A stretch of DNA of 40,072 nt, taken from Ruminococcus sp. (lineage in GTDB: Bacteria > Bacillota > Clostridia > Oscillospirales > Acutalibacteraceae). Below are positions 20,481 to 38,342 of this stretch, piece by piece (position 1 is the stretch's first letter; each line of letters begins with the position of its first letter). The stretch covers positions 1 to 40,072 of the forward strand of contig JAFRGI010000022.1 of the NCBI GenBank assembly GCA_017433905.1. The letters run 5' to 3'. A program made the position numbers and the translations under genes. Under the pieces are notes generated by a model. The model did not search any database and was not told the origin of the DNA. It saw only the letters and a program-made list of their open reading frames with translations.

Positions 20481-21704
20481 TTACACGTTCTGATTATAAA
20501 ACTTGATCGTAAAAACGCTTCCCTTGCCTACCTCGGAATCAACCCGAACGATACCTCCGGATTTTTGAATAATTGTCTTGGCAAGTGCAAGTCCGATACC
20601 AACGCTGTTCTCGTCGGCGTTCTTACCCCGATAAAAACGATCGAAAATATGCGGCAAATCCTCTATGTCGATTCCCTGACCGTTATCGGACACCGTGATT
20701 TTAGTATAAAACTTGTTGGTTTCTGCGCAAAGCCGCACCTCGCCGTTCTCAGACGTATGCTCTATGCAGTTTTTCGTGATGTTGGTGAGCGCTTCGCAAA
20801 GCCATTTTTTATCGCACGCAAGCGTAATATCGTTGTCTTTCGCCGTGACAGAAACGCCTTTCAGCTCGGCGATGACTTCAACATTTTGGGAAACGTCGGC
20901 AAAAACCCGCGATAGCGGCACATTCTGTTTTTTCATAACAATCGAATCCGCATCAAGCTTTGAGAGCGTCAGCAAAGACTGTACCAGAAAGCTGATATGC
21001 TTGGAGGAACGGTGAATATCACACAGGAATTCCTGCCGCAGCTCCGGCGGCAAATCGGGGTTGTCGAGCAAATTTTCCGTCATAATAATCACGGAGGTCA
21101 GCGGCGTTTTGAGTTGATGTGAAATGTCTGACAGCGCGGTTTTTAACTCCTCCTTGCCCTGAGATGCACGCTGCGCTGCCTCCCGCAGCGTGACTATCGT
21201 TTTATATATTTCGTTTTGCAGTCTCGAATCCACACTCTCGGTGTTACTATCCAACGCCATACGATACCTTCCGTTGTTGATTTGCGCCAAATAATTCGCC
21301 AGTTCGTTTTGCCTTTTTTTCCGATACTGCATATAAAACAAGAATACCGCAAGACCGGAAACGCCGCAAAGCAGACAGCAACCGACGGAAAGCGTCATGA
21401 TATGTTGGCTGTCTGCCTGATTGATTTTTACCGTCCATTCGTCCTCGGATAATCCGAAAGATTTCATCATACTCTCCGTATCATCCGTATCAAGGGTATT
21501 CGACTTTCCGTCAAGAGCTTTCAGAATATCTGTATCCGTCATTTCGGGTTTTTCTGTTCGCAGATTGGCAATCAGCTGCACCATCGCCTGCTGATTGTGC
21601 TCTCGCATTTGACCAAACAAGAAAACAGAGCATAAAACACACAACACGCACCATACGACGAAGATCGCCGCAAATACAATCACAAACCGTTTCTCCGTTT
21701 TCAT
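20481..21704 (-). CDS. Sensor histidine kinase of a two-component system
   Basis: The 407-residue kinase has a first membrane helix (about 8-30), an external region of about 70 residues, a second helix (about 104-126), a HisKA domain with phospho-acceptor H196 (DISHQLKTPL), and an HATPase_c domain with N-box N308/N312, G1 box DNGQGI (340-345) and G2 box GIGLALAK (369-376). The external domain is small but longer than in the intramembrane-sensing BceS kinases, so it may sense a ligand directly. It overlaps the response regulator by 4 nt and lies just downstream of an ABC transporter, a context common for antimicrobial-peptide resistance modules. Confidence 0.92.
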   Translation of the reverse strand: MKTEKRFVIVFAAIFVVWCVLCVLCSVFLFGQMREHNQQAMVQLIANLRTEKPEMTDTDILKALDGKSNTLDTDDTESMMKSFGLSEDEWTVKINQADSQHIMTLSVGCCLLCGVSGLAVFLFYMQYRKKRQNELANYLAQINNGRYRMALDSNTESVDSRLQNEIYKTIVTLREAAQRASQGKEELKTALSDISHQLKTPLTSVIIMTENLLDNPDLPPELRQEFLCDIHRSSKHISFLVQSLLTLSKLDADSIVMKKQNVPLSRVFADVSQNVEVIAELKGVSVTAKDNDITLACDKKWLCEALTNITKNCIEHTSENGEVRLCAETNKFYTKITVSDNGQGIDIEDLPHIFDRFYRGKNADENSVGIGLALAKTIIQKSGGIVRVDSEVGKGSVFTIKFYNQNV

Positions 21705-22345
21705 ACGTCCTCCATTCTGTATCCGGCGCCCCTGACCGTCTTAATCTGGTCGGTACCGAGCTTCTTTCGTACGCGTCGGATATACACGGATAACGTATTG
21801 TCGTTCACATAATTTCCCGCGATATCCCAAATTTTTTCGAGTATCATCTCACGACTCACCACCGCGCCGCGGTTCTGTATCAACAACGAACAAACCCGGT
21901 ATTCAAGCGCGGTCAGCTCGATTTTTTCGCCGTTTTTAAAAACAACCTGCTTATCAAGATCAAGGGTAAGCTCCCCCACAGTAACCGTATTTTCGTTTTT
22001 CCGTGTCAACCGCTTAACACGTGCCAACAGTTCACGGGTGGAAAAGGGCTTGGGGATATAATCCTCCGCACCGAGATCAAAACCCTTGACAATGCTGTCC
22101 TCATCGTCAAGCGCGGTCAGAAAAATGACCGGTGCGGAATGGAGACGGCTTATTTCGCGATACAGATCAAATCCGTTGCCGTCGGGAAGATTGACATCAA
22201 TAATCAACACAGCGTAATCATTGACGATATTGGCGTACGCCTGCTCACAGTCTGCGCAAATGTCCACTTTAAAACCGGCGTTCTGCAGTGAAAAAGCCAG
22301 TCCCTTTGCGATGGCTTTGTTGTCCTCGATCAACAATATTTTCAT
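21701..22345 (-). CDS. OmpR/PhoB-family response regulator
   Basis: The 214-residue protein has a receiver domain with the acidic pocket (EDN at 7-9), phospho-acceptor D50 (LIIDVNLPDG), and the conserved Thr and Lys (FLTALDDE, YIPKPFS), followed by a winged-helix DNA-binding domain (about 120-214) ending with KIRTVRGAGYR-like TVRGAGYRM. The start has GGAGGGG upstream. It is co-translated with the kinase. The most likely target is the tandem 11-bp repeat in front of the neighbouring ABC transporter. Confidence 0.93.
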   Translation of the reverse strand: MKILLIEDNKAIAKGLAFSLQNAGFKVDICADCEQAYANIVNDYAVLIIDVNLPDGNGFDLYREISRLHSAPVIFLTALDDEDSIVKGFDLGAEDYIPKPFSTRELLARVKRLTRKNENTVTVGELTLDLDKQVVFKNGEKIELTALEYRVCSLLIQNRGAVVSREMILEKIWDIAGNYVNDNTLSVYIRRVRKKLGTDQIKTVRGAGYRMEDV

Positions 22346-22364
22346 CCGTTAAGCCCCTCCATCC

Positions 22365-22410
22365 ATGCCACTGACGCGACGCCTTTGTTAAGGCGGCGCG
22401 TCAGTGGCAT
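22365..22410. other. Long hairpin between ABC permease and response regulator
   Basis: A perfect 14-bp stem (22365-22378 with 22397-22410) closes, after one mismatch, on a further 6-bp stem (22380-22385 with 22390-22395) and a 4-nt loop. It follows the ABC permease stop at 22425 by 14 nt, but on the minus strand no U-run follows; the next bases are the ribosome binding site of the response regulator. It may act as a partial terminator, an mRNA stabiliser or a processing site that sets different levels for the ABC and regulator genes. Confidence 0.65.
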
Positions 22411-22424
22411 ACAGATATATGGTT

Positions 22425-25211
22425 TTATATGTTTTCGTTTCGTATGGTTTCAATAATGTTTTGTTTACTCACTTTGACGATAGAGTAGCGCATGATTATC
22501 CACACAACCAATCCAACGGCAACAATGGAAATCAAGACCGCGAGCCACGGAAACTGATACGGGATCTCTTCTGTCATACTGTAAACCATCTGGATGCCCC
22601 AACCGGCGAGCAAACCGATCGGAATACCGATCAACAGAGATTTTGCGGAGTAGAACACGCTCTCCAAACGAATCATACGGTTAAACTCGCGGCGCGTCAT
22701 ACCGATGGAACGAAGCGATGCAAACTCACTCGCGCGCAGGCGCATGTTGGTCGAAATGGTATTAAAGATATTGGTAATACCGATCAGCGTAATAACGAGG
22801 ATAAAGCCGTATACAAAGATCTGAACAACCAGCGTAAAGGCATTTACCGTTCTTTCCGTTCGATCATAATTTGATATATACGCGGCGCCTCCAATCATTT
22901 CGCTAAGTTCCTGCTCGGTTTTATCGGGATTGGAAGATTGGATATAAAATGCACTTTTGACAAATGCGTCTTGAGGCACATGTTCTTTCATCCAGTCAAG
23001 AGTGACGATAACCGCTCCGCTGTCCAATCCTTTCATATGGACACGTTTATGTATCGCTTCCTGATGTACCAGCTCACCCGCCAAGTTCAGCGTCACTTTT
23101 TTACTATTTGCCGCCGGAGACAGATCATTTTCTTCACCAAAAAACAACTCTAAATCGGCATCTTTAACTTTTTTCAAAATCTCACCGTTTGCCCGCAGCT
23201 TATTATCGGTGATTTCAGTGTTTTCATTATTAATCAATCCTTTATCCTTGGCATACGCATAATCGACGCCGCACACCGAGCAAACCTCCCGATAGCTGTC
23301 GTCATCCAGTGCCACCAAACGCGGCAATCGAACAATCATCTTTGATTTTTCATTTTGATCTTCCTGAATGCCGTAAAAAAACGAATGCACATCAGGATTC
23401 TGCACTTCCTCCGTTAGATTGCTCTTATCTATTCTCATGTGTACACCGTAGACCACGCTGCGCGTACTTACCACGCTCTCGACCGTATCCATACGCTTGA
23501 AGGAATCATACCAGTCATCTGCATCCCGATAAGAAAACTCATAAGAGATAGGTACAATTTCCACATTATAATTCACCTGCTGCAAATACAATGCCATATA
23601 CGAAAAGGTAGCGGTAACCAGTGTGCTGACAGCCAGGAACATCGCCACGCTCGCTACAATGGACACCACGGTCGCACGGTATTTTTTGCGGCTGCGCTTA
23701 AGGTTTTTGTAAGCAATACTACCGCCGATACCGAACAGCTTATCAATCCACTTCGGTGTTTTGTGATAGGATTTTTCAAGATCCGACCGAATATCTCTCT
23801 TGCCGCGAATCGCATCGATGGGAGCAATTCTGGACGCGCCGACAGCCGTAAAGAACATCGAGAAAAAGATGGTAAGCGCAGACACAACCACCGCGACGGC
23901 AATACCGATCCACGAAACGGAGAACACAATACGGATACCGTTAAGTCCTTCGCTCAGCAAGGAATTACTAATCGTTATCAGTAGCGTAGTCACGCCGATG
24001 CCCAAAACGACTCCAAGAGAAATACCGATGACACCCAAAAGAAAGCCCTCGAACATAACATTGCGAAGCACCTGCCGCGGCGTGGCGCCGACGGAGCTGA
24101 GCATACCGTAGAGACGTGTTTTCTCGGTAATGGAAATCGCAAAGCTGTTGCGGATGATAAAGATACTCGACAAGACGATGATAGCGGTAACTATTGCGGC
24201 AATGCCGATAAGAATGCTCATGGTTCTTTCACTGACATTAAATATGCGCATTCGCAGGACACTGTCGTTGTATTGAATATCTGTGATACCAAAACGGTTT
24301 TCGGGTATGCTTCTCTCCGACGCATTCACTCCGTCCGCCGGGTTGTAATGGGGAGACAACCATTCTCTTGTCTGCTCCGTTGTCATCCCCGTCAGGTCGC
24401 TTAACGTCTGTATATAATCCCTTTCTTTGCTGTCATACAACCTAAGCATCATGCTCGACGCATGTTCATACGCTGCGGAACGTTCTGATTTATCGTAGGT
24501 ACGTCCCGTAAACAGCCTGATCTCGGTCGAACTGGAATCAGATTCCAGATATCCTTTGGCAGTTTTTAATATGCCCGCAACCGTGTAGGTTTTGGTAAAT
24601 TCGGGGATAAAGTCCTCTTTGTCCGGATCATATAAAGGATTGGTTTCACGGCTATGTTCCTCCCATCCCTCACTTTCGAATGCGGGAATACTTTGTTTTG
24701 TTACCGTGCCTTTCTCCCATCTGCCTCCAACGTCAAGCGTGATCGTATCTCCCACATGATAAGTTTGCGGCGCAAAACTAACAAACTGGGGCGTCAGCAG
24801 GATTTCATCCGATGATTGCGGATAATGTCCCTCCTCCAGCTCACAGCGGTAACAGTTTTCATAGGTATTTTCACTCAAACCACTCAAGTTGACATATGCC
24901 TTGTACTCAGACTTAAAAAGAAACTTTGCCGTACCGACAGGCGTCTTTTCATATACATGCTCTACGTCGCGGTTCTGTGCCAAAGATTCCGCAGTGTTCG
25001 CGTCAAAATCACCTTTCACAGCGACCGACCAGTCACCGCAGATATTGACCTCTGTTTCGACCAAACTCTGTCTGCCGCTGGTGACAATGCCCGTCACCAC
25101 GGTTACCAGCGCAGCGGACAGCATAATGCCGACAATCGTGACAGCCGTACGGGTTCGGTTGCGATTGAGGTTGAGCATAGTCAGTTTTCGCATCGTGCTC
25201 ATGATACTCAC
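22425..25211 (-). CDS. FtsX/MacB-type ABC transporter permease, eight-helix form
   Basis: The 928-residue permease has two FtsX cores. Predicted helices are near 22-44, 331-354, 388-415, 430-457, 511-540, 792-815, 855-875 and 889-908, with large outside domains of about 285 and 250 residues after helices 1 and 5. The conserved FtsX coupling helices appear as RLYGMLSSVGAT (about 366-377) and FASLRSIGMTRREF (830-843). This is the 8-helix duplicated form rather than the 10-helix BceB. Such mechanotransmission transporters expel or detach peptides or lipids at the membrane. It overlaps its ATPase by 4 nt. Confidence 0.9.
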   Translation of the reverse strand: MSIMSTMRKLTMLNLNRNRTRTAVTIVGIMLSAALVTVVTGIVTSGRQSLVETEVNICGDWSVAVKGDFDANTAESLAQNRDVEHVYEKTPVGTAKFLFKSEYKAYVNLSGLSENTYENCYRCELEEGHYPQSSDEILLTPQFVSFAPQTYHVGDTITLDVGGRWEKGTVTKQSIPAFESEGWEEHSRETNPLYDPDKEDFIPEFTKTYTVAGILKTAKGYLESDSSSTEIRLFTGRTYDKSERSAAYEHASSMMLRLYDSKERDYIQTLSDLTGMTTEQTREWLSPHYNPADGVNASERSIPENRFGITDIQYNDSVLRMRIFNVSERTMSILIGIAAIVTAIIVLSSIFIIRNSFAISITEKTRLYGMLSSVGATPRQVLRNVMFEGFLLGVIGISLGVVLGIGVTTLLITISNSLLSEGLNGIRIVFSVSWIGIAVAVVVSALTIFFSMFFTAVGASRIAPIDAIRGKRDIRSDLEKSYHKTPKWIDKLFGIGGSIAYKNLKRSRKKYRATVVSIVASVAMFLAVSTLVTATFSYMALYLQQVNYNVEIVPISYEFSYRDADDWYDSFKRMDTVESVVSTRSVVYGVHMRIDKSNLTEEVQNPDVHSFFYGIQEDQNEKSKMIVRLPRLVALDDDSYREVCSVCGVDYAYAKDKGLINNENTEITDNKLRANGEILKKVKDADLELFFGEENDLSPAANSKKVTLNLAGELVHQEAIHKRVHMKGLDSGAVIVTLDWMKEHVPQDAFVKSAFYIQSSNPDKTEQELSEMIGGAAYISNYDRTERTVNAFTLVVQIFVYGFILVITLIGITNIFNTISTNMRLRASEFASLRSIGMTRREFNRMIRLESVFYSAKSLLIGIPIGLLAGWGIQMVYSMTEEIPYQFPWLAVLISIVAVGLVVWIIMRYSIVKVSKQNIIETIRNENI

Positions 25212-25876
25212 ACCTCCTTGATTCTGCCGTCCTGAATACGGATCACACGGTCTGTATCCTTGGCGATTTCAAGATTGTGGGTAATCATGATGATAGTCTG
25301 GTGATAATTTTGATTGGCGAGCTTTAAGATACGCATTATTTCATCCGTCGCCTTGCTGTCCAAATTACCCGTCGGCTCATCGCAGAGCAAAAGCGAGGGA
25401 TTGTTGATCAGCGCACGCGCAATGCTGACGCGCTGCTGCTGACCTCCCGAAAGCTCGTTGGGGAGATTACGGCGTTTGTCAGCAATACCCAAGGAATGCA
25501 TAATCTCGTTGAGGCGGTTCATATCCGGCGCTCTGCTGTCCAAATCCCACGGAAGCATCACGTTTTCCTCTGCGGTAAGAATCGGGATCAAATTGTAAAA
25601 CTGGTACACGATACCGATTTGACGGCGGCGAAAAATCGCCATCTTATCTGCGTTTAGCTTGCCGATATCCTGACCGTCCACAAATATATGTCCGCTTGTC
25701 GGACGGTCAACACCACCGAGCAAATGCATGAGGGTACTTTTTCCGCTGCCGCTTGCACCAACGATCGCGACAAATTCTCCTTTTTCCACACTCAGGTTAA
25801 CGTTGTCCACCGCGTGAACGGTATTCTCGCCCGATCCATATGTCTTGCAAAGATTTTCTGTACGTAAGATTTCCAT
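25208..25876 (-). CDS. LolD/MacB-type ABC transporter ATP-binding protein
   Basis: The 222-residue ATPase has Walker A GASGSGKST, the Q-loop YQFYNLIP, signature LSGGQQQRVSIARAL, Walker B LLCDEPTGNLD and an H-loop (MITHNLE). The Q-loop and EPTGNLD motifs are typical of the LolD/MacB/BceA family that pairs with FtsX-type permeases. The reading frame opens at 25888, but the ATG at 25876 is chosen since GGAGG lies 5 nt before it. A promoter with a probable regulator site lies just upstream, and the permease follows with a 4-nt overlap. Confidence 0.93.
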   Translation of the reverse strand: MEILRTENLCKTYGSGENTVHAVDNVNLSVEKGEFVAIVGASGSGKSTLMHLLGGVDRPTSGHIFVDGQDIGKLNADKMAIFRRRQIGIVYQFYNLIPILTAEENVMLPWDLDSRAPDMNRLNEIMHSLGIADKRRNLPNELSGGQQQRVSIARALINNPSLLLCDEPTGNLDSKATDEIMRILKLANQNYHQTIIMITHNLEIAKDTDRVIRIQDGRIKEV

Positions 25877-25894
25877 AAGAACCTCCATAACTTT

Positions 25895-26197: not shown

Positions 26198-27955
26198 TTA
26201 AACTGCTATTTCTATGACTGTGTTATTCATGTTCAAAACACGCGTATACGTCATATTATCCGCAATGGACTTTATCAGCGCGATACCGCCCAGCAGGAAA
26301 CCTTCCTCGTTTTCCGTTGTATTGTACTCGGTGGGATTGAACGAAACACCGTCGTCGCGAAGGCGGAGAATCAGCTTGTTATCCACCTTGGAGAGATTGA
26401 TATCAATGCAACTTGGCTTGTTTCCCTTGTATCCGTAACGAACGATATTGGCGGTAAGCTCCTCGGCGGCAACACCAATAACATTAGCTTTTTCCGAGAC
26501 AATGCCGTTTTGACCGCAGCATTCAATCAGCTTCTTTGAGATCTCGACCGCCTGTTCATCCGTACTCATGACGGTGATATCCATTAGGTTTTCTCCGTCC
26601 TTTTCGGGAATCATCAGAAAACCCTTCTGCGGCAGCCTGCCGCGCTTTTGCTGTATGACTCGGTAAATCCATACCGCCAGGAAGGAAAGCCCCTCTGTCA
26701 TGATGGTCGCTATGCTTACGCCAAGCACACCCACGGTTCCGATCAGCAGCATGGAAAGCGGTACCAGCAGGACAAATCCGTCAAGAACAGTATTCATGGT
26801 GGAAATCTTTGCGTGCAGCGTCGTCTGATAATACACCTGTACAATGCGGTTTGCTGCATAGAAGCCGAAGCTAAAGCTGAACAAACGCACGCAGAGCAGC
26901 GCTTCGTCAAACAAATCGGGCTTGTTGAAGGAAAAGATGGTCAGGATGAACTGAGGATAGGTCAGGAACACCACCATCAGAACAACGACCGTTACACTGC
27001 AGAACAGGAGCGTTCTTTTGACAAGACGCCGGATACCGTAATAATCCTTTTCGCCGTAGAGAACGCCGCCGATGGTCTGCACAACACCGATAATCCCCTC
27101 GACGCAAAGGCGGACGATATAAACCGAGTTGATGCATACGGCATAAATCGCCATATTATCGGCGCCAAGTGTGTTTTGAATAAAGGCGTTGAGGATGTAA
27201 TATTTCAGGATCAGCATGATGAAATACATCGCCTGCGACTGACCGTTTTTGATGATCGTACCAATCATGCGTATCTGTTTCAGCCCCTCACGAAGGCTGA
27301 AACGAAGCATTCTTTTCTTGGAAAAGGTGTACGGTATCACAAGCAGAATGCCGGACGCAAAACCGATAACGGACGAAAGGGCGGCGCCTGTCATACCCAT
27401 ATCGGTGTATTTCAGAAAAATATAGTCCAGCGTCAGATTGACGGCATTTGCCACTATAAAAGCGGCAGAGCCCAACTTGGGGTTGTTATCAACCGTCATT
27501 ATATTGGAGAATACCAGACACATATTGAGCGTCGGAATACAGCAGATAAAGATGAAGAGATATGGTTCCAAAAGTGCCTGCAGTGTCGACGTTGACGCCA
27601 GAAACAGGGTCAGCGGATGCGTGATAACAAAGGACAGAGCGGTAAATACCAGCGAAACGGCGGCTACAGTGATCACACATACCGAAAAAATACCCGAAGC
27701 GTCGTCCAACTGACGTTTACCCAACTTAACGGAAATCGTGATCGCGCCGCCCACTCCTATCGCGAAACCAAACATCTGCATAAAACACAGAACGGGCATA
27801 CTGAGCGATATGGCGGTCAATCCGTCAATATCAATAAACATACTGACGAGGATGCTATCCACGATATTGCCCAGCTGCATGGCAATCGCCATGAGTACAC
27901 CGGGCACCAGATAGCTGTTGAATTTCCGCTTTATTAAATAGTCGTTTCTTATCAT
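26198..27955 (-). CDS. MATE-family transporter fused to C-terminal HATPase domain
   Basis: Residues 1-440 form a 12-helix MATE (NorM/DinF-like) transporter, with a second six-helix half starting near residue 240. After a short linker, residues 460-585 are a GHKL ATPase domain of the RsbW/SpoIIAB anti-sigma kinase type: an N-box-like EELTANIVRYGY (498-509), a G1-like DDG (534-536) and a Gly pair (557-558). MATE proteins normally end after 440-460 residues, so this is a genuine fusion in one frame. The start overlaps the NRPS stop (ATGA), so it is probably co-produced and may export the NRPS product. The ATPase domain may regulate transport or signalling; that is inference. Confidence 0.88.
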   Translation of the reverse strand: MIRNDYLIKRKFNSYLVPGVLMAIAMQLGNIVDSILVSMFIDIDGLTAISLSMPVLCFMQMFGFAIGVGGAITISVKLGKRQLDDASGIFSVCVITVAAVSLVFTALSFVITHPLTLFLASTSTLQALLEPYLFIFICCIPTLNMCLVFSNIMTVDNNPKLGSAAFIVANAVNLTLDYIFLKYTDMGMTGAALSSVIGFASGILLVIPYTFSKKRMLRFSLREGLKQIRMIGTIIKNGQSQAMYFIMLILKYYILNAFIQNTLGADNMAIYAVCINSVYIVRLCVEGIIGVVQTIGGVLYGEKDYYGIRRLVKRTLLFCSVTVVVLMVVFLTYPQFILTIFSFNKPDLFDEALLCVRLFSFSFGFYAANRIVQVYYQTTLHAKISTMNTVLDGFVLLVPLSMLLIGTVGVLGVSIATIMTEGLSFLAVWIYRVIQQKRGRLPQKGFLMIPEKDGENLMDITVMSTDEQAVEISKKLIECCGQNGIVSEKANVIGVAAEELTANIVRYGYKGNKPSCIDINLSKVDNKLILRLRDDGVSFNPTEYNTTENEEGFLLGGIALIKSIADNMTYTRVLNMNNTVIEIAV

Positions 27956-30900
27956 TCCGTATCCCCCGTAAAAAATCCGAATCCCTCAAGAGCGTTAAAA
28001 GCGTTGGCAAGATAGTCCTCGTTGATGATAGGCCACTTAAAGCCCAGATGATAGAGCATCTTTGTCGTAAAGTTGTTGTCGTGTCCGATCCAGAACTGCA
28101 CGGCTTCACCTTTCGCACCCTTGTAGGAAATCAGGGGAGAGAGAATCTCATTCATCTTTTCATCAGACAAAGCGTCGTTAAAAATCTGTTGAAACTCCTT
28201 GCTGCTCACGGTTTGGATCGGAATGCCAATGCGGTTCATCGCCTCAACGACGTCACCCATCTGAACATGATGTCCGTTGGTGGCGTGGAATACGGTGAAT
28301 TTGCTCTCCGTAGACGACAGAGTGACTACCGCCCTTGCGGTACAGTCGATAGGAGAAAACTCCACTTCTCTGTCGAGTGCCGAAACGGGTACCGCACCGA
28401 GCTTTGCGTAAGCCCTCATGCTGCGCATAAAATTATTGGTCAGGAAATTGATCTGGAACTCACCGTCGCTGTAACGGCTCATCAAATTGCCGACGCGCAC
28501 AATCATTCCGTCAAGTCCGTCATCCTCAATTGCTTTCAGCAATACTTGCTCGGCTTTGAATTTGGTGTTGGCATATTTGTTTTCAAGGTTCTGACCAAAG
28601 TAAAGCTCATTTTCATAAATCTTTTTATCTACGCCAAACTGCTCAACCGTTCCCGTGCCGGCGACGCTGACCGTGGATACCTGCACCAGGCGGCGTTTAG
28701 CGTTCAGGCACAGATCAATGAGATTTTCCACTCCATGCCAGTTGATACGGTCAAGGGTGTCGTCCTGTGCAAAATGCTTGACGCAGGCAGCGCAGTTGAT
28801 GACGGTACCGAAGTCGTAAGATCCGAGCGTCAGAATCAGTTTGGGGTCGGTAATGTCTCCCTTGATGACCTCGATGCGGTCGCCAAAGAGCTCTTTCATC
28901 GGATCGTCAAAGTAATACATCAACATATTCATCATCCTGTTTTCTACCGTATCGCTGTTGGCGCGAAGCAGACAATAGATTTTCTTGTCTGTCGTATCAA
29001 TCAGACATTTCAAAACATGGATACCAAGAAAACCGGTCGCGCCCGTCAACAGGATATTGCCGGTATCTACGGTGTTTCCGGATGTTTCATCTGTGATGAA
29101 CACGGGAATGTTATACGACAGCGCGCTGTCCTCTGTCAGCTTCATTTTTTCCTTTGCTTCAGGATTGGTGAGATTTTTGGTGTTGATGAACTGCTCCATC
29201 GTCCCGACAGTGGGATAGTCAAAAACATCCTTGAAGGCGATTGGCAGGTTTTCCATCATCGCTTTCATAGCGATTTTGGATGCCGTCAGCGAGGTGCCGC
29301 CTATCTCAAAGAAGTTATCGTTAATGCCAACCTTGTCGGTACCCAAAGCGTACGCAAACATGGCGCAGAGTTTCTTTTGCAGCTCGGTCACCGGCGCTGT
29401 GTATTCGCGTTCTTCCGCAACAACGACGGGCTCGGGCAGTGCCTTTTTGTCTACCTTGCCGTTGGCGGTGAGCGGGATCGCGTCAAGCTGGACAAATACA
29501 GAGGGGATCATATATTTAGCGAGGCTCTTGCCCATGTGAGCGGCAAGATCGTCCGTGTTAACCTTGACGCCTGCCGCAAAGTACGCACAAAGATACTGAC
29601 CGGTCTGCTCGCTGTCCTTCACAATCACCACGCTGCGTGTGACAGCCGGATAAGCGTTCATCACATTTTCGATTTCATCAAGCTCGATCCTCAGTCCCCT
29701 CAGCTTCACCTGATTGTCCATTCTGCCCATGAAGTAGATTTTTCCGTCCTTGCCCCAGCGCGCGAGGTCACCGCTGCGGTAAGCAGGCAGTCCGTTGAAA
29801 GTGATGAATTTTTCCTTGTTCATCTTTTCGTTGGCAACGTAGCCTCTGCCTACACATTCGCCGAGGATCGTCAGCTCGCCGGGAACATTGGCAGGCAGTT
29901 CATTGTCGTATTTATCCAACATAACCACCTTGGTATTGCAAAGCGGCTTGCCGATGGTGATGCGGTTGGAGGTTAGATAATCAATAGAGGTAGTGATCGT
30001 CGCCTCTGTGGGACCGTAGCCGTTGTAGATTTTGGCTTTGATACCGGCACGGCGCATTTTGTCGTAGAGAGGAGCGGGAAACGCTTCGGCGCCAATATCG
30101 ATCGCTTTCATTTGGCAAAGCACCTTTGCGACCTGCGGTACATCAAGCATATTATTCATATAGGAGGGTGTGCACTTCATAACATCCACACCGTGCTTTT
30201 TCATCATTTCGGCAAGGAGAACGGGATTGTTGATCTCATCCTCTGTCGCCATAGCTACGGTGCCGCCGTGATACAAACCCAAACTTTCCTCCAGTACCGA
30301 AACGTCGAAGGTAAGCGCCGCCAACGCCAGTGATACAGTCATGTTATCGACAAATTCACAGGACTGGACATTGATCGGATGATGATGGACAAAGTTCACG
30401 AGGGAATGATGCTCGATCATCACGCCCTTCGGTTTTCCGGTAGAGCCGGAGGTGTAGATGCAATAGCAGAGATTGTCGGGTCGGACGCCTGTTTCGGGAT
30501 TGGAGATCCGGCTGCTTTTCAGCATATCCTCCATGACGCAAACCGTCACACCCACACTCTCAAACAGCGCTTTTCTTTCTTCGGCAAGCGCTGCCGTTGT
30601 CACGATGCGCTTTGCGCCGGAGTTTGCGAGGATATAAGATACACGGTCGTCGGGATAATCGGGCGCAAGCGGCATAAACGCGGCGCCCGCTTTGAGAATG
30701 CCTTCGCGGACAACATAAGCATATACCGTTCTCGGCATCATCACGCCGACCATTTCATCGAGGATCACGCCGCCGTCAATCAGACTGTGCGCCACGCGGT
30801 TGGCGTTTTCGTTGAGCTGCGCATAGGTCAGCTTCTCGTTGTCGGCAATGACGGCTGTTTTATCGGGATGCGCGACAACCTGCGCTTCAAACAGCTTGTT

Positions 30901-33900
30901 ACAGGTGGTGTGCGGAATATCAACCTCGGTAGCATTAAAGCTGTCAATCAGCCCGGCTGCGCTCTTGGTCATCACAGAAACCTCTTTGAGCAACTGTTTG
31001 CTGATAAACTGCTGAGCGGTTTTTTCCATGCAGGCGACAAAACCGCGCATAAATTCCTCTGAATAACAGTCGGAGCGGTAATCGCAGACAAATAACAGCT
31101 TGTCGTTTTTAATACCGACATTGATATTAAGCGGAGCCTTCGCATCGCTCAACGACAAGGGTATCATTTTCGCGGGTGCGTTGCCGATCTCGGTAAATGC
31201 AAGTCCTTCTCCCTGATAGGCAAACATGACGTCCGCGGAAATGTCATAGGCGCGTGTGATCTCCGCGAAGGAATATATATCGTTTTCCATGCTGCCGATC
31301 AACTGTTCGCCCGTGGCTCTGATAAGCTCGGCGATCTTTTTGTCGCCGTCGAGAGCACAATAAACGGGAAAGGTCTTTACCAGCATGGTAACGGCGCGTG
31401 CCAAACGGGAATCGTTTCTGCCGTTATAGATGGTCGTATAAACCGCTTCGGTTTTATAATTATATTTCGCCAGCACAAAAGCAAATACCGAATTGAAGAA
31501 AGCGTTCAGCGTCACGCCGTTTTGTTTGCACCATTCCCGGATAGGCGAAACATCAACCGCTGACGGCATCTTGAACTGATTGGAGGACTCAACGGCTCCG
31601 TCCACATCCTTAGAGGGAAGGAAATCGGAATCCACGCCGCTGAAAATCGCGTCGTAATATGCCTTTGCCTTGGCGTAGCTCTCGCTCTGACGAGCCTTTT
31701 CCTCCGCAAGCGCCGCTTCAAACCCGGTGTAGCTTTCGGTTTCCAGGGCAGCTCCTCCGTAAGCAGCGTTGATATCCTCTATCAGGACGGCTTCGCTGGT
31801 ACCGTCGCAAATGATATGATGGATCTCGAGATAGAGATAGTTCCCTTCTCTTGTTCTGTATATTTTTACACGATATAAGGGGCTGCTCATCAGCGCAAAG
31901 GGCTGCACCATGTTTTCGGGCAGCGCATCAGCGTCGATCAGCTCAACAACCGGAGCGGCGCTGTCGTTCCTTTTTGCGCGGATGTCGCCGCTGTCATTGA
32001 GGAACAGCTCTGTTTTGAGGTAGGGGTGAGCGTTGATCATCGCCTCGGCGGCGTCTCTGAGCTTCTGTGTATCGACAGTGTCCGACAGCTTGAACAAAAA
32101 CGGGATATTGTAAACGGTAGAATCGGGACGCGCAACACACTCTACGAAAATACCGTTCTGTGTCTGTGTGATGGGATAGTCGGAAAGCAGTTCAAACGAT
32201 TCCGCTTCACCGCTCTGTCCAAAGAAACCTTCCAGCGCCTGCACCGTATTGTGACTGCGCAGGTCTTTAATCGTAACGGGAACATGAAATGCAGACGACA
32301 GCATCACGTTAAGCTTAATCGCGCCGATGGAGGTGAGCCCCGCATCAAAGATATCGTCGGTAATTCCGAAGGCGGCAGAGCCGATTACCTCTGCGATGCA
32401 GTCAAATATCTTCTTCTGTGTTTCGTTCTGCGGAGGCACTGTGTCAGCCGCTTTCTTTTCGGGCTTGGGCAGGGCGCGACGATTGACCTTCTGGTTTTGG
32501 TTCAGCGGAATACGGTCGATCTGCATCGTCACGGCAGGCACCATGTATGCGGGCTTATCGCGCTTGATGAATTCACCCAGCGCGTCCACATCCACAGGCT
32601 CATCCGCAACAACATAAGCTGCGATGAATTTGCCGCCGCCCGATTCGTCGAACGCCTGCACGGTGGTATCTTTGATACCGGGGAATTTGCGGATAATTCC
32701 TTCAATTTCACTTAATTCAACTCGGAAGCCGCGTATCTTCACCTGACCGTCGTTTCTGCCGATAAAATCAGCCGTACCGTCGCTCAGCAAACGCACGATA
32801 TCTCCCGTGCGATAGGCGTGTTCATAGCCGGGTTCATCGGAGAAGGGATTACGGATAAACACCTCGGCGTTCTTTTCGGGACGGTTCAAATAACCTCTGC
32901 CGACCTGATGTCCCGCGACGACCAACTCTCCCGGTATACCGAAGGGCAGGCGGTGGAGGTTCTTATCAACAACATATTGCTTCATGTTGAACAACGGATA
33001 GCCGATCGGAACGCGCCCGAACAGTTTTTCAACGGGATACATATGCGTGAAGATCGTACACTCGGTAGGACCGTAGCCGTTATAGAACCTAAAACCGCGC
33101 GGCGGCTCCACGGGCACCAACTTTTCGCCCCCCGCCGAAAGGTGCTGCGGATAGGAAACATCGGGGAACAAATCGACGTACTGTCTACCGACCTGCGTGG
33201 TCATAAAGGTGTGCGTAATGCCGTTTTCGCAGAAATAGTCTTTTATGGCGATCAGGTCAAGTCGAATACTCTCGTCGATGATATGCAGTTGACCGCCGAC
33301 AAGCAATACAGGGTACATATCCAGCATGTGACTGTCAAAGCCGTAGCTGGCGTAAGCGGAGGAACGGCTGTTCTCATCCATCTGATAAGTGGTGACATAC
33401 CACTCGCAGAAGCAGCAGAGATTATGATGCTCCAGCATAACGCCCTTGGGAACACCCGTGGAACCCGAGGTGTAGAGCATGATGAACAGATCGCTCGGAT
33501 CCGGATTTTCAGGAATTCTTTCTGCGTCGGGCAGATCCGGTATTTCGTCGGTATAGAGCACAGGACCGTCGTAATGCGGCAGCTTATCCATCAGACTTCT
33601 GTCAGCAATCAAATACTGCGCCTCTGCGTCCTGGATCATAAATTCCAGCCGTTCCGAGGGATAACTCGGGTCAAGCGGCTGATAGCCCGCACCCGCCTTG
33701 AGGATACCGAGAGCGGCGATGGGCATATATTCGCAGCGCGGAATCATAACGGAAACCGCCTGATTTTTTCCTATTCCCCTGCTTCTGAGAAACGCCGCGA
33801 TGTTCTCTGTTATGCGGTCGACCTCTCTATAGGTATAGACGTGATCGAGATAGACCACCGCAATATTGCCGGGCGTTTTTTCCACCTGACGTCGGAACAG

Positions 33901-36900
33901 CGTAACGATATCCGTTATCTCGTAATCGTGTTCAAAGTGGTTTAGGGCTTCCAGCCTTGCCTCTGTTTCTTCATCGACAAGCTGTACCTCGCCGATATTT
34001 TCTCTGTTCGCAAACTCCGTCAGCGCACGCTCGTATGTGTCCAGCATATCCTTGATGAAGCTCTCGGTATAAACGTTTGCATCGTAGGAGATGTGATAAC
34101 GCAGGATGTCGCCGTCGGGATAAATCAGCAACTCGATCTTGGCTTTTTCCTCTTCAAAAAAGAGCGGGATATTTTCTGCCTCTGCGCTGCAGAAATCAAA
34201 AGTATTTCCGTCCGAAACCGTGTTTTGATAGACAAACAACACGTCGGCGGTTATATCGAGATGATGTCTGATCTCCGCGAAAGAATAAACATCATATTGC
34301 AAACTGTCCGCCAGCTGTTTGCCGATCCCCTTGATGTACTCAAATACAGAGCCGTTTCCCGGTCTGCAAAGCACGGGATACGTATGTACGAACATAGACA
34401 CACTGTTGCGAAAACGCGGGTCGTTTCTGCCGTTATTAACGGTTGCAAAAACAGCGTCTTCCTCTCTGCCGCAATATTTACCCAGCAGCCATCCAAATAC
34501 AGCGGTGCAAAAGGCATTTTCGCTGACGTTGTTTTCGGCGCAGTAGCCGCGGATAACGGAAGCGATCGCTTTTTTGCCGCTTATATTCAGCATGCCGCTG
34601 TCTTTTTCCTGACGATCGCAAAGCACATCGCCGATAGGCAGGCAGTCGCTTTCCACGCCGTCTAACAACTTCGTGTAATATTCTTTTGAAACATTATAAT
34701 GGACGCTCGAACGCAGCCTTTCTTCCAAAAGCGCCGCTTCATAGCCGCTGTAGGTCTCGGGAGCCGGCGCTGTGCCGTTGTAGGCGGCGGAAATATCCCT
34801 GAGCAGAATTTTTTTCGATTCACCGTCAAAGACGATGTGATGGATATCGAAGAACAGATAATTTTCGTCGTCTGTTTCTATGATGGTGAAACGGTACAGT
34901 TTTTCGTTTTCAATGTCAAATGGCTTGACCAGACTGTCTTTGATCTCGTCGATCGAGCTGCAGCGAAGCACATCTATCTCATTTGCTTCCAATCGGTCAG
35001 TGGCTCTCCTTTGCCTGATCTCTCCCCTCTGATTGATGAACATTCTCGTCATCAGATACGGGTGCGCATTGACCGCCGTCTTGATCGCCGCACGGAGCCT
35101 GTCGGGATCGATCGAACCGTCCAGCCGCAGGAGCGTCGGAATGTTGTAGATCGTGCTGTCAGGATGAGAGGTCGTCTCGAAGAAAATACCCTCCTGCGTC
35201 TGGGTGAGCGCATATTCATCGAGGAGCTCAAATTCCTCGGTGCCTTCCTGCGTCAGCTCTTGAATGAAACGCTCTAATTTTTCAATCGTATCGTTGTCAC
35301 GCAAATCACGGATCTGCACGTTTACGCCGAATGCGTCGCTGAGCCTGATACAGAAACCGACGCTGTTCAGCGAGGTCAGTCCCGCCGCAAACAATTCGGT
35401 TTCCATACCGAAATCACTGTTTTCGAGAACCTCCTCCGCAATATGAAAAATCCGCAGCTGTGTTTCATTTTGCGGCGCAGTCTTCTGCCGCGCTTCCGCA
35501 GTGAGCTCAGGCAAGCTTTGGGTATCGGTCTTGCCGTTGGCAGTAACGGGCAGCGCATCCATTTGCAGGAACGCCGCAGGAACCATGTAGTGTGTAAGGC
35601 GCTTTTTCAGCTCACCGCGCAGCGCGTCGATATCAATTGCCGTATCAGCGGTGAAGTAAGCGCATAGGTTGTCCTGACCTCCCAGCGGACGGATTACGAC
35701 CGCTGCCTTTTTGATATGCGGCTGCGCTTCCATCAGCTCCTCGATCTCGCTCAGCTCAATGCGCAGACCGCGCAGCTTGACCTGATTATCCAGTCTGCCG
35801 AGAATACAAACGTTGCCGTCTTTGTCAAATTTTGCGTAATCGCCCGTGCGGTACATTCTCTGTCCGCAGTATTCCACAAACGCCTCGGCTGTTTTTTCGG
35901 GCAAATTGCGATAACCCCTGGCAACACCCGCACCGCCGACGAACAGCTCTCCTACCACGCCGCAGGGCGCGACATCGCCGAATACATCTACAATGTATTC
36001 GCAGTAATTGAGCAGCGGTCTGCCAACGGTAACATAAGGCGCGTCGGTGAGATCGGCGGCGTTACAGGAAACCGTGATCTCGGTGGGACCGTAGGTGTTG
36101 ATGATTTTAATATCCTTGGAACAAGCCCGGATTGCGTCGCGCAGGGAAATCGGATAGCCCTCACCACCCGACATCACTAATTTGCATTTGGCAATCGCGT
36201 CTCTGAACGGCTCATACTCCATATATTGCTGTAAACGGGAAGGAGTAGCGTTCATACAATCGACGTTGTATTCTTTCATCAGCTTTGCCAATGCGCGCGG
36301 ATCGTTCATCTCATCCTCGGCGGCAAAGATCAGCGTCTTGCCGTTGCACAGCGCCGCCGTGTGCTCTTTGAAGGACATGTCAAAGGAAACGGTCGTAACG
36401 GAAAGATACGTATGGATATGCCTTTTCAAATAATGAATATGTATGTTGGCAGGGTGCGGCGTCAAATAGTTACAAATACTCTTGTGGGCAAGCATCACAC
36501 CCTTTGGCTTGCCGGTGGAGCCGGAGGTATAGATCATATAGGCAAGCGCATCCGCACTCATTTCAACGTCGGGGTTCTCCGTTTGGCTGTCGCTGAAAAG
36601 TTCGGAAACGTTGATCGCCTTGTCCGCGGGATAGTCGGACAGTTTGTCCTCTGTTGTAATGATATACGCCGCACCACTGTCCTCCATAATGGAATGGATT
36701 CGATCGGAAGGATACTGCGGATCGCAGGGAATGAACGCGGCGCCCGCCTTGTTCACACCAAACAGACAGCTGAAAAAAACGCTTTCACGCGGCAGCAGCA
36801 GCACAACACTGTCGCCTGTCGTAACGCCCCTGTCCATCAGGTTATGCGCAACGGTATTAGCGCTTTCGTTCAGTTCACGGTAGGTGAACGTTTTATCCCG

Positions 36901-38286
36901 GGCAATCAAAGCGGTTTTGTCCGCGTTTTCTTCCGCGTTCTGCTCAAACAACCTGTGCAGCAGTGTGACGGGCACTTCCGCAGCGGAGGAAACTGAATAT
37001 GCCTTTAATTTTTTTTGCTGCAGGGCGGGCAGCGCCAGCGCCTGACGAACAGTTTCGGACCGATCTGCGCAGAGGTTTTCTGCTGTGTGGAGGAACTGTT
37101 CGATAAAGTCGTCGATAACGGTTTCGTCAAATAATTCGCTCGCATATTGCAGGTAACAGTCAATGTTCTGCTCCTTGACATGCATCACCAGATTGATGTC
37201 CTTTCCGGAGGACTGCAAACGATAGGAATGACGGAGTGTGATACCATTTTCATTGAGAGTGGGTTGCACATGAATATAGTTAATACCCAAATCGAAAAGC
37301 AGACTGCGCGAGGTATCTCTGCCCCCGGCAAACGCCGCAACCAAACGGTCAAACGGGCAGTGATTTTCTTTGATGTAATCGGTAACAGCCTTTTGTACTT
37401 CGCTGATATAGCTGTCCGCTTTCTTTGTGCGGACAGGTTGCAGCCGCAAAGGAGCTGTGTTGACAAACATGCCGATGGTGTTGGCAGTATTGCCGTCTCT
37501 TGTGTTGGCGGGCACGCCGATAACGATATCCTCTGACGCGGTGTATTTTGCCGCCGTCATGGAATATGCTGACAGCAGCATCACAAACACGCTTACCGAT
37601 CGCGCGCGCGCCGCTTGCTTTAAGCTCCGCAGAAGGTTGTCGTTGATGACAAAGAAACGGTTGGTATCGGATTCCGGGTGCACTTTCGGACGTGCCGATT
37701 TCAGGGGCAGCTCCGTCACAGGCACACCGTCCGTAAACAACTTCTTGTATTTTTCAAAGCCCTTTTGATATTCCGGCTCTTTATCCTTTTGTGAATCTCC
37801 GCTCAAATCAAAGTGATCGCCGACAGGCTCTTTACCGGAGATCCTCGCGAAAAGCTCTCTGCCAAACAAAACGTCACTGCCGCCGTCAAACATAATGTGA
37901 TGACACAAAAGAACAAGCACACTGTCTTTTCCGTCCGTGTAAATCACCGCGCTGACGGGAAGACCGCCGGAGAGATCATAAGGCTTGTCCAACGCTTCCG
38001 CAAGCCCGCGGGCAGCATGGATATCGTCAATCGTCTCGATCGTAACCAGCGGAAGCTCGTCCGTCATCACTCTCAACAGCGCCCCGTCTTTTTCACGATA
38101 TACCGACCGAAAGGCTTCATGACTGCGAAAAATCTCCGTGACCGCTTCCCTGATCCGCTCCGCCGAAACACCGCTAACCTCATAATAGTAAATGAGGTTA
38201 TACATTTTCGATTCCGGATGAAACTTCTGTTCCAGATACATACCGGTTTCAAAGGGATTGAGAGAATGTGAAGTCAGTAAGCTCAT
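27952..38286 (-). CDS. Trimodular NRPS with terminal reductase (C-A-T x3, R)
   Basis: The 3444-residue synthetase has, in order: C1 (about 8-430, HHIMFDG at 129-135), A1 (443-925), T1 (940-1010, Ser972), C2 (1020-1445, HHIVFDG at 1149-1155), A2 (1460-1945), T2 (1950-2022, Ser1986), C3 (2030-2440, HHIICDG at 2156-2162), A3 (2460-2952), T3 (2960-3040, Ser2999) and a reductase (3070-3440; GATGFLG at 3082-3088, Y3238/K3242). All A domains have TSGSTG-x-PKG, YGPTE and the late Lys (919, 1933, 2944). The first C domain suggests N-acylation; the reductase suggests NAD(P)H-dependent release as an aldehyde. No epimerase or thioesterase is present and no phosphopantetheinyl transferase is in the window. 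The start has AAGGAGG upstream. Confidence 0.95.
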   Translation of the reverse strand: MSLLTSHSLNPFETGMYLEQKFHPESKMYNLIYYYEVSGVSAERIREAVTEIFRSHEAFRSVYREKDGALLRVMTDELPLVTIETIDDIHAARGLAEALDKPYDLSGGLPVSAVIYTDGKDSVLVLLCHHIMFDGGSDVLFGRELFARISGKEPVGDHFDLSGDSQKDKEPEYQKGFEKYKKLFTDGVPVTELPLKSARPKVHPESDTNRFFVINDNLLRSLKQAARARSVSVFVMLLSAYSMTAAKYTASEDIVIGVPANTRDGNTANTIGMFVNTAPLRLQPVRTKKADSYISEVQKAVTDYIKENHCPFDRLVAAFAGGRDTSRSLLFDLGINYIHVQPTLNENGITLRHSYRLQSSGKDINLVMHVKEQNIDCYLQYASELFDETVIDDFIEQFLHTAENLCADRSETVRQALALPALQQKKLKAYSVSSAAEVPVTLLHRLFEQNAEENADKTALIARDKTFTYRELNESANTVAHNLMDRGVTTGDSVVLLLPRESVFFSCLFGVNKAGAAFIPCDPQYPSDRIHSIMEDSGAAYIITTEDKLSDYPADKAINVSELFSDSQTENPDVEMSADALAYMIYTSGSTGKPKGVMLAHKSICNYLTPHPANIHIHYLKRHIHTYLSVTTVSFDMSFKEHTAALCNGKTLIFAAEDEMNDPRALAKLMKEYNVDCMNATPSRLQQYMEYEPFRDAIAKCKLVMSGGEGYPISLRDAIRACSKDIKIINTYGPTEITVSCNAADLTDAPYVTVGRPLLNYCEYIVDVFGDVAPCGVVGELFVGGAGVARGYRNLPEKTAEAFVEYCGQRMYRTGDYAKFDKDGNVCILGRLDNQVKLRGLRIELSEIEELMEAQPHIKKAAVVIRPLGGQDNLCAYFTADTAIDIDALRGELKKRLTHYMVPAAFLQMDALPVTANGKTDTQSLPELTAEARQKTAPQNETQLRIFHIAEEVLENSDFGMETELFAAGLTSLNSVGFCIRLSDAFGVNVQIRDLRDNDTIEKLERFIQELTQEGTEEFELLDEYALTQTQEGIFFETTSHPDSTIYNIPTLLRLDGSIDPDRLRAAIKTAVNAHPYLMTRMFINQRGEIRQRRATDRLEANEIDVLRCSSIDEIKDSLVKPFDIENEKLYRFTIIETDDENYLFFDIHHIVFDGESKKILLRDISAAYNGTAPAPETYSGYEAALLEERLRSSVHYNVSKEYYTKLLDGVESDCLPIGDVLCDRQEKDSGMLNISGKKAIASVIRGYCAENNVSENAFCTAVFGWLLGKYCGREEDAVFATVNNGRNDPRFRNSVSMFVHTYPVLCRPGNGSVFEYIKGIGKQLADSLQYDVYSFAEIRHHLDITADVLFVYQNTVSDGNTFDFCSAEAENIPLFFEEEKAKIELLIYPDGDILRYHISYDANVYTESFIKDMLDTYERALTEFANRENIGEVQLVDEETEARLEALNHFEHDYEITDIVTLFRRQVEKTPGNIAVVYLDHVYTYREVDRITENIAAFLRSRGIGKNQAVSVMIPRCEYMPIAALGILKAGAGYQPLDPSYPSERLEFMIQDAEAQYLIADRSLMDKLPHYDGPVLYTDEIPDLPDAERIPENPDPSDLFIMLYTSGSTGVPKGVMLEHHNLCCFCEWYVTTYQMDENSRSSAYASYGFDSHMLDMYPVLLVGGQLHIIDESIRLDLIAIKDYFCENGITHTFMTTQVGRQYVDLFPDVSYPQHLSAGGEKLVPVEPPRGFRFYNGYGPTECTIFTHMYPVEKLFGRVPIGYPLFNMKQYVVDKNLHRLPFGIPGELVVAGHQVGRGYLNRPEKNAEVFIRNPFSDEPGYEHAYRTGDIVRLLSDGTADFIGRNDGQVKIRGFRVELSEIEGIIRKFPGIKDTTVQAFDESGGGKFIAAYVVADEPVDVDALGEFIKRDKPAYMVPAVTMQIDRIPLNQNQKVNRRALPKPEKKAADTVPPQNETQKKIFDCIAEVIGSAAFGITDDIFDAGLTSIGAIKLNVMLSSAFHVPVTIKDLRSHNTVQALEGFFGQSGEAESFELLSDYPITQTQNGIFVECVARPDSTVYNIPFLFKLSDTVDTQKLRDAAEAMINAHPYLKTELFLNDSGDIRAKRNDSAAPVVELIDADALPENMVQPFALMSSPLYRVKIYRTREGNYLYLEIHHIICDGTSEAVLIEDINAAYGGAALETESYTGFEAALAEEKARQSESYAKAKAYYDAIFSGVDSDFLPSKDVDGAVESSNQFKMPSAVDVSPIREWCKQNGVTLNAFFNSVFAFVLAKYNYKTEAVYTTIYNGRNDSRLARAVTMLVKTFPVYCALDGDKKIAELIRATGEQLIGSMENDIYSFAEITRAYDISADVMFAYQGEGLAFTEIGNAPAKMIPLSLSDAKAPLNINVGIKNDKLLFVCDYRSDCYSEEFMRGFVACMEKTAQQFISKQLLKEVSVMTKSAAGLIDSFNATEVDIPHTTCNKLFEAQVVAHPDKTAVIADNEKLTYAQLNENANRVAHSLIDGGVILDEMVGVMMPRTVYAYVVREGILKAGAAFMPLAPDYPDDRVSYILANSGAKRIVTTAALAEERKALFESVGVTVCVMEDMLKSSRISNPETGVRPDNLCYCIYTSGSTGKPKGVMIEHHSLVNFVHHHPINVQSCEFVDNMTVSLALAALTFDVSVLEESLGLYHGGTVAMATEDEINNPVLLAEMMKKHGVDVMKCTPSYMNNMLDVPQVAKVLCQMKAIDIGAEAFPAPLYDKMRRAGIKAKIYNGYGPTEATITTSIDYLTSNRITIGKPLCNTKVVMLDKYDNELPANVPGELTILGECVGRGYVANEKMNKEKFITFNGLPAYRSGDLARWGKDGKIYFMGRMDNQVKLRGLRIELDEIENVMNAYPAVTRSVVIVKDSEQTGQYLCAYFAAGVKVNTDDLAAHMGKSLAKYMIPSVFVQLDAIPLTANGKVDKKALPEPVVVAEEREYTAPVTELQKKLCAMFAYALGTDKVGINDNFFEIGGTSLTASKIAMKAMMENLPIAFKDVFDYPTVGTMEQFINTKNLTNPEAKEKMKLTEDSALSYNIPVFITDETSGNTVDTGNILLTGATGFLGIHVLKCLIDTTDKKIYCLLRANSDTVENRMMNMLMYYFDDPMKELFGDRIEVIKGDITDPKLILTLGSYDFGTVINCAACVKHFAQDDTLDRINWHGVENLIDLCLNAKRRLVQVSTVSVAGTGTVEQFGVDKKIYENELYFGQNLENKYANTKFKAEQVLLKAIEDDGLDGMIVRVGNLMSRYSDGEFQINFLTNNFMRSMRAYAKLGAVPVSALDREVEFSPIDCTARAVVTLSSTESKFTVFHATNGHHVQMGDVVEAMNRIGIPIQTVSSKEFQQIFNDALSDEKMNEILSPLISYKGAKGEAVQFWIGHDNNFTTKMLYHLGFKWPIINEDYLANAFNALEGFGFFTGDTE

Positions 38287-38342
38287 TTATTTATCCTCCT
38301 TATGATTGCATATTTTTATACACATCTTCTTGCCAAATCCGG

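Follow-up and report, generated by a model that had tools for sequence, protein, structure and literature searches.

How does a non-ribosomal peptide synthetase (NRPS) that begins directly with a condensation domain obtain the group expected to cap its peptide? The question is raised by a reductase-terminated enzyme of 3444 residues, encoded on the minus strand of contig C19 in a Ruminococcus metagenome-assembled genome (MAG) of 1.125 Mb that is 74% complete. All 40,072 nucleotides of this contig were analysed and are referred to here as the window. The gene starts with ATG, runs without an internal stop and encodes the domain order C-A-T-C-A-T-C-A-T-R (C, condensation; A, adenylation; T, carrier; R, reductase). 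Pfam recognizes three Condensation, three AMP-binding and three PP-binding domains in the product, together with one NAD_binding_4 domain of the thioester-reductase type. The features of the enzyme and of the adjoining gene are as follows.

27952..38286, minus strand: trimodular reductase-terminated NRPS, 3444 aa (open reading frame, Pfam and motifs)
36967..38283, minus strand: C1, N-terminal condensation domain of putative acylating type, HHIMFDG (C-domain trees and motif)
35512..36963, minus strand: A1, code DMKNVSTVSK, predicted to select Glu (code alignment)
35257..35475, minus strand: T1, carrier serine motif GLTS (motif)
33952..35229, minus strand: C2, HHIVFDG (tree and motif)
32470..33909, minus strand: A2, code DSLFLAGIFK (by hand DSLFSGGIFK), predicted aliphatic (code alignment)
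32215..32433, minus strand: T2, GLTS, putative mosaic joint at which kinship to other enzymes shifts (identities and motif)
30919..32193, minus strand: C3, HHIICDG (tree and motif)
29437..30903, minus strand: A3, code DVLKIIGITK, its residue predicted to become the C-terminal aldehyde (code alignment)
29179..29394, minus strand: T3, GGTS (motif)
27955..29169, minus strand: terminal thioester reductase, GATGFLG, VQVST and YANTK (Pfam and motifs)
26198..27955, minus strand: 585-aa fusion of a MatE transporter with an RsbW-like HATPase_c_2 domain (Pfam), its gene overlapping that of the NRPS by 4 bp

The open reading frame, Pfam domains and motifs together confirm the initial annotation of a trimodular reductase-terminated NRPS. 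Its further claim that the nine C, A and T domains and the reductase have all retained their key residues is borne out for the motifs checked; SGSTGxPKG, YGPTE and the A10 lysine (NGK, NQK and NGK) are present in all three A domains. In addition, NRPS residues 2958-3439 match PDB chain 6vtj (E 6.2e-90), which we take to be the structure of an archaeal PCP-R didomain.

The A-domain codes, read off an alignment at the customary code positions, suggest what the enzyme may assemble. The A2 substrate looks aliphatic, the by-hand version of its code differing by a one-column shift. A3 has a Lys at the position where Asp and Asn codes carry one, which serves as a lead only. The A1 code is one residue off DMKNISTVSK, the second code in four out of five C-A-T-C-A-T-R enzymes from the genus (L038 and L040-L042) and the third in L037. 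The fifth such enzyme, L039, has DLKNISTVSK in second position, and a sixth, L036, has different codes. From their architecture we infer L038-L042 to be ruminopeptin synthetases, and ruminopeptin has been described as the aldehyde of an N-acylated Leu-Glu dipeptide (PMC8518294). Given this product and the near-identical code, Glu is the best guess for A1, and the best prediction for the whole product is N-acyl-Glu-(aliphatic)-X-aldehyde, likely a protease inhibitor.

Release by reduction and the aldehyde end had been claimed together and stand on different ground. Reductive release is supported by the domain and its motifs, and two-electron reduction to an aldehyde would follow by analogy with known gut relatives. 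Some NRPS reductase domains perform a four-electron reduction and yield an alcohol. We regard an alcohol product as very unlikely here, as the known gut relatives are reported to yield aldehydes (PMC8518294, PMC12327764).

Counting the enzyme's own genome, a C1 relative (E <= 1e-20) was found in 53 of 150 same-genus genomes sampled, and a C1-A1 relative (E <= 1e-200) in 47 of 161. Fourteen named relative loci came from one scan, seven of which (L006, L007, L008, L009, L010, L012 and L016) bear RUG isolate names and are titled uncultured Ruminococcus or Clostridiales; L011 is Pseudoruminococcus massiliensis, and the remaining six are other MAGs. The RUG names presumably indicate rumen origin and, judged from these named kin, the gut Clostridia setting first proposed is better taken as Ruminococcus-like and mostly of rumen type. 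Domain maps of the relatives, drawn with HMMs built from the domains of the window NRPS itself, reveal three types of start: C-first, A-T-C whose first A domain bears Asp235, and A-T-C whose first A domain does not.

An A domain without Asp235 does not hold the alpha-amino group of its substrate, which leaves beta-amino, hydroxy, keto, aryl and fatty acids as possible substrates. Among 95 A-domain rows, in which one enzyme is counted twice (L031 is L009), Asp is present at position 235 in 76 and absent in 19. The latter are 15 first A domains of A-first reductase-ended enzymes, three A domains from separate A-T-half C ORFs (L010, L015 and L017) and one cut, unreadable domain (A1 of L014). Because a loader label defined by the missing Asp would be circular, our loader counts start from all A-first ORFs. 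There are 21 such reductase-ended ORFs, two of them cut at the N-terminus (L006 and L014); in the other 19, the first A domain has A, V or S in place of Asp in 15 and has Asp in four. All 68 other A rows of reductase-ended enzymes, one enzyme again entering twice, carry the residue. The A4 motif (F-D-x-S) reads FALS in the loaders of L007 and L020, FAWS in L010 and FVAS in L008, and when the loader of L029 is aligned to LgrA, an Ala falls opposite the LgrA Asp.

Two groups of Asp-less proteins were noted among the relatives. The separate A-T-half C ORFs (L010:22078-25191, plus strand; L015:10831-13971, minus strand; L017:8921-12037, plus strand) stand beside reductase-ended NRPSs, and Pfam, run on those of L010 and L017, recognizes a thioesterase domain in both. 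L032-L035 and L044-L048 are common enzymes of 1976-1980 aa with an Asp-less loader A-T, a C domain, a Glu-code A-T and a reductase, for which release of an acyl-Glu aldehyde is predicted.

The position of C1 among these relatives bears directly on its donor. In a tree of 68 C domains, the window C1 lies inside a 19-row clade (support 99/100), which is recovered at 100/100 in a tree of 65 domains from which three very long L043 rows were removed. This clade comprises 14 rows that follow Asp-less loaders, four C-first rows (the window, L009, L030 and L036) and one row of unknown start (the first ORF of L008, cut at the locus start). Rows labelled internal are absent from it (0 of 34 in the larger tree, 0 of 31 in the smaller). 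The C1 domains of 14 of the 15 Asp-less-loader enzymes fall in the clade, as do those of none of the four Asp-bearing-loader enzymes. Within it, the window C1 forms a group of four with L029, L010 and L007 (100/99 and 100/98), all three of which have a loader in cis and share 73, 71 and 68% identity with it; support for a pair made up of the window and L029 alone is weak (90/55). The tree tool warned that the long branch between the C1 clade and the rest could mislead, a warning that does not touch the placement of the window inside the loader-fed group, since this is independent of that branch. The placement of L030 is weaker in the 65-row tree (81/72).

By these trees, labelled by position and without named lipo-initiation reference domains, the N-terminal C domain is of acylating type, as in ruminopeptin-type enzymes. 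The acyl cap first read from it is thereby supported, and the cap may be a fatty acid. What does not hold is that C1 resembles the original starter of a C-first enzyme, since its nearest kin are loader-fed in cis. Grouping with upstream-fed C domains had been named as evidence against a cap, and half of this was found: C1 groups with domains that are fed from upstream, but seemingly with an acid that has no alpha-amine. A supply to C1 from ordinary amino-acid modules, also considered, is not supported: L011, L012, L013 and L018, whose first A domain bears Asp, have their C1 elsewhere in the tree.

A putative trace of such a loader lies at the start of the window gene.

38269..38308, minus strand: putative loader scar, the ribosome site with the opening six codons (MSLLTS), aligned in register to where the loaders of L029 and L010 start (start comparison)

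Compared over bases -22 to +18, the window gene shares 32 of 40 positions with the start of the L029 loader and 29 of 40 with that of the L010 loader. These two were the best matches among 287 longest-ORF starts (at least 150 aa, the window's own included), the third reaching 22 of 40. As many longest-ORF starts may be wrong, the control was repeated on every ATG, GTG and TTG; with L031 and the small loci that duplicate parts of the window's own genome omitted, L029 and L010 were again the top two among 64,053 such codons, taken from either strand of the loci retrieved, followed by one at 25 of 40 and six at 23. The match is weak for L007 (0.42) and L020 (0.55, with a hand-chosen start), even though the proteins themselves open with MSGLT and MSRLT. 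The protein of the window gene begins MSLLTS-HSLNPFETGMY and the L029 protein MSLLTS-TLKK, with the C1 of L029 beginning TEYPLSPYETGMY. Relative to L029-type loader enzymes, about 558 codons are absent from the window gene. The A-T loader that precedes C1 in those enzymes is missing, and no remnant of it was found upstream of the window start beyond the 40-bp scar.

Since the three nearest C1 kin have their loader in cis and the starts of two of them match, we read the window gene as an in-frame deletion derivative: an acyl-loading A-T of about 558 codons seems to have been deleted in frame. One could instead blame the assembly, with the true gene containing an extra A-T, given that the sequence comes from a single MAG with mobile elements at the contig end. 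This is highly improbable, because the joint is in frame and C-first kin exist in other MAGs. Moreover, the regions joined share at most 5 bases in L029, so k-mer collapse during assembly is not expected.

A deletion derivative would not stand alone in the C1 clade. On the 68-row tree, loader losses in the clade number three if the loader is ancestral. L009, which is C-first, keeps residues matching the T0-C1 linker of L008 (KENKPK.YPLTSSERGMY), which is another sign of loader loss. Outside the clade, L037, the fifteenth Asp-less-loader row, has the C-first enzymes L040-L042 as its sister group (100/100 and 100/99), which adds a further switch. L037 and L040-L042 may thus form a second lineage alternating between loader and no loader, although L037 sits on a long end branch, and rows of this kind are flagged by the tool as unsure in their placement. 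The C-first L015, L017, L038 and L039 lie elsewhere in the tree, so that C-first enzymes have more than one origin. None of the listed titles and opening parts of abstracts on loader or starter types, module loss and rumen or gut peptide aldehydes describes loader loss in these enzymes, which is no proof of its absence in print.

With the loader apparently lost, the acyl group must now arrive in trans. In the scheme we favour, and hold to be somewhat probable, the acyl donor comes from outside the enzyme. An acyl group (acyl-CoA or acyl-ACP) would be joined via C1 to Glu on module 1, modules 2 and 3 would add the aliphatic and then the third residue, NAD(P)H reduction would free the N-acyl tripeptide aldehyde, and the adjoining MatE-HATPase protein would export it. 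The acyl nature of the donor is proposed because Asp235 is absent in the loaders of close kin and ruminopeptin is reported as N-acylated. Within the window, no acyl ligase, ACP or trans loader was recognised beside the NRPS. The sole free-standing AMP-binding protein found in the 74% complete MAG is acyl-CoA-ligase-like, and no ACPS-family phosphopantetheinyl transferase was found in this assembly (~1.13 Mb), while one is present in five of five more complete same-genus genomes.

The scheme supposes that C1 is still used. An idle C1 since loader loss would have synthesis start with Glu on A1-T1 and yield a free-amine tripeptide aldehyde able to cyclise or condense. In keeping with this, the nearest C1 kin are loader-fed, no trans source was seen beside the NRPS, and the relatives L011, L012, L013 and L018 have an amino-acid first A domain that would leave a free amine. 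The dN/dS of C1 (NG86) is also slightly raised, at 0.109, 0.118 and 0.117 against L029, L010 and L007, compared with 0.097, 0.073 and 0.080 among those three, in comparisons where dS is saturated (at least 1.6); C2 gives 0.066-0.102 for the five of six pairs that were computable. This rise could reflect a changed donor or mild relaxation. However, the C1 motif is intact, the ratios indicate purifying selection, and the window end branches of C1 and C2 are alike (0.22 and 0.23 in the 68-row tree), which together we take as retained function. In addition, L009, L030 and L036 retained C1 while being C-first, which makes the missing loader a workable state. An idle C1 is thus unlikely.

The external donor could also be a loader acting in trans. 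The same MAG encodes a second reductase-ended NRPS, L020 (contig C11, 4666-15530, plus strand; A-T-C-A-T-C-A-T-R), with a MatE gene after it and an Asp-less loader followed by the codes DMKNVSTVSK and DLKNVATISK. Its A0-T0, or a loader in the missing quarter of the genome, might feed C1. L020 shares 63% identity with L029 in the loader and 52% with the window enzyme in C1, and separate Asp-less A-T proteins exist in the genus (L053 and A-T-C proteins of about 1000 aa). Against this, L020 T0 is directly followed by its own C1, and no docking part was noticed. Furthermore, no bare A-T didomain was found with one loader as query (E 1e-15) in G061 (100% complete) or G110 (98%), both of which have C-first enzymes; the matches were NRPSs, one A-T-C protein, and frames of 513 and 551 aa without a T hit. 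We judge a trans loader to be distinctly unlikely, and retain free acyl donation to C1 as the preferred reading.

The separate proteins merit description in their own right. L053:4230-6563 (minus strand), from the genome G046 that also holds the C-first L036, is a 777-aa Asp-less A-T whose C-terminal stretch is alpha/beta-hydrolase-like without a Pfam hit. The proteins of about 1000 aa (L049:4706-7702, L050:5173-8178, L051:4804-7794 and L052:4257-7244, all plus strand, from four same-genus genomes) have an A domain with FVAS and no Asp235, a T domain with GGDS and a C domain with intact HHxxxDG. Each is directly followed by an ORF of 555-559 aa, of the carboxylesterase family in L049, the sole one tested, and these proteins look like acyl-to-free-amine condensing systems. 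As trans loaders these proteins were rejected: they turn up both where the genome has a cis loader and where it lacks one, which makes a function of their own likelier.

The last step of the scheme involves the adjoining transporter. A MatE ORF was located no more than 1 kb away from 28 of the 34 reductase-ended NRPS ORFs, HATPase-fused in 25 and on the same strand in 27 (counted with a one-sequence HMM, and with L031, the copy of L009, dropped). The six without one are L014, L015, L017, L019, L046 and L047, of which L014 and L019 have an ORF truncated by the start of the locus. Other neighbours are STAS (L011), SpoIIE-HATPase (L011, L032, L035 and L037) and lone HATPase genes (L038 and L040). 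MatE-HATPase is thus the presumed export and sensing partner of the NRPS, sensing probably by partner switching. Downstream of the NRPS pair, 20481-25888 (minus strand) encodes an ABC ATPase, a 928-aa FtsX permease, a response regulator and a histidine kinase, an order that presumably recalls peptide-antibiotic resistance sets. These genes were rejected as cluster parts: in L006, the one relative compared, MatE is followed by an LRR protein and then an ORF without a Pfam hit. Elsewhere in the window, the contig end (38835-40072) carries a fragment of a Mutator-family transposase followed by TnpV and part of a group II intron (RF02012, 39824-39933), and a glycerophosphodiester phosphodiesterase is seemingly split across two overlapping frames at 15735-16812 (minus strand).

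Loader loss is not the only rearrangement that the enzyme appears to record. Per-domain identities to the best-matching domain in seven enzymes, and 80-residue-window profiles against five, indicate that it is a mosaic of two lineages. From A1 to A2 it resembles all seven (A1 67-86%, T1 77-84%, C2 63-73%, A2 80-90%), whereas from T2 to R it shares 76-90% with L030 and L006 only and 37-48% with the other five. L029, L010 and L007 (A-T-C-A-T-C-A-T-C-A-T-R) are like the window enzyme over C1-A-T-C-A (65-88% per domain) and in their MatE-HATPase neighbour, but they have an Asp235-less A-T before C1, and their nearest domains to window T2-C3-A3-T3-R are only 38-48% identical. Conversely, L030 (G110) shares the order C-A-T-C-A-T-C-A-T-R, the A1 code and the A3 code, and has T2 to R in common with the window enzyme, as does L006 (RUG10755), but the C1 of L030 is only 40% identical. 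C1 identity is likewise 38% with both L008 and L009, and L006 is cut at the contig end within C1. The joints lie near residues 430-480 (C1/A1) and 1945-1960 (A2/T2).

These observations allow a tentative generalization, which in our estimate falls a little short of an even chance: the acyl loader may be a detachable cis A-T module without the amino-acid Asp, lost repeatedly and leaving C1 to use acyl groups of the cell, with a direct scar of the deletion kept in the window gene and later modules swapped at C1/A1 and A2/T2. If true, this would be natural module exchange on capped protease-inhibitor aldehydes. L029 and L010, with a loader, and the window enzyme, without one, would then be natural before-and-after pairs for the switch of a C domain from a carrier-bound to a free acyl donor, which NRPS engineers seek, and the C1/A1 and A2/T2 joints would mark sites that tolerate natural exchange. 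A concrete compound class, acyl-Glu-aliphatic-X aldehydes, is predicted for a gut genus in which C1 relatives are this frequent.

Among known systems, the AusA aureusimine synthetase is likewise an NRPS with a reductase end, and its product is an uncapped pyrazinone. The window enzyme matches the AusA model NF047350 at 2228.1 bits, below the curated cut-off of 2500, and is not assigned to that family. The main text of a survey of rumen gene clusters uses neither 'aldehyde' nor 'reductase' (PMC8241843). In Methanobrevibacter ruminantium M1, mru_0068 is a C-first NRPS with MatE, an anti-sigma antagonist and serine phosphatases as neighbours, whose end is a thioesterase in the paper's text and a thioester reductase in its Figure S8 legend (PMC2812497). 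It has two modules and separate anti-sigma antagonist and phosphatase genes, whereas in the window MatE is fused to HATPase. Among gut peptide aldehydes, a Clostridium cluster is reported to produce N-octanoyl-Met-Phe-H (PMC8518294), and Ruminococcus bromii is given as the source of ruminopeptin (PMC12327764). The ruminopeptin synthetase and other dimodular gut peptide-aldehyde NRPSs, such as BGC0001686, resemble the window enzyme in an N-terminal C domain, an expected N-acyl aldehyde and a reductase end, here a thioester reductase with SDR motifs. However, ruminopeptin-type enzymes have two modules with Glu last, whereas the window enzyme has three modules, with Glu predicted first and the loader apparently lost, and its C1 belongs to another N-terminal C lineage than those of L038-L042. 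The window NRPS is therefore best described as a three-module variant of the ruminopeptin type and not as a ruminopeptin synthetase.
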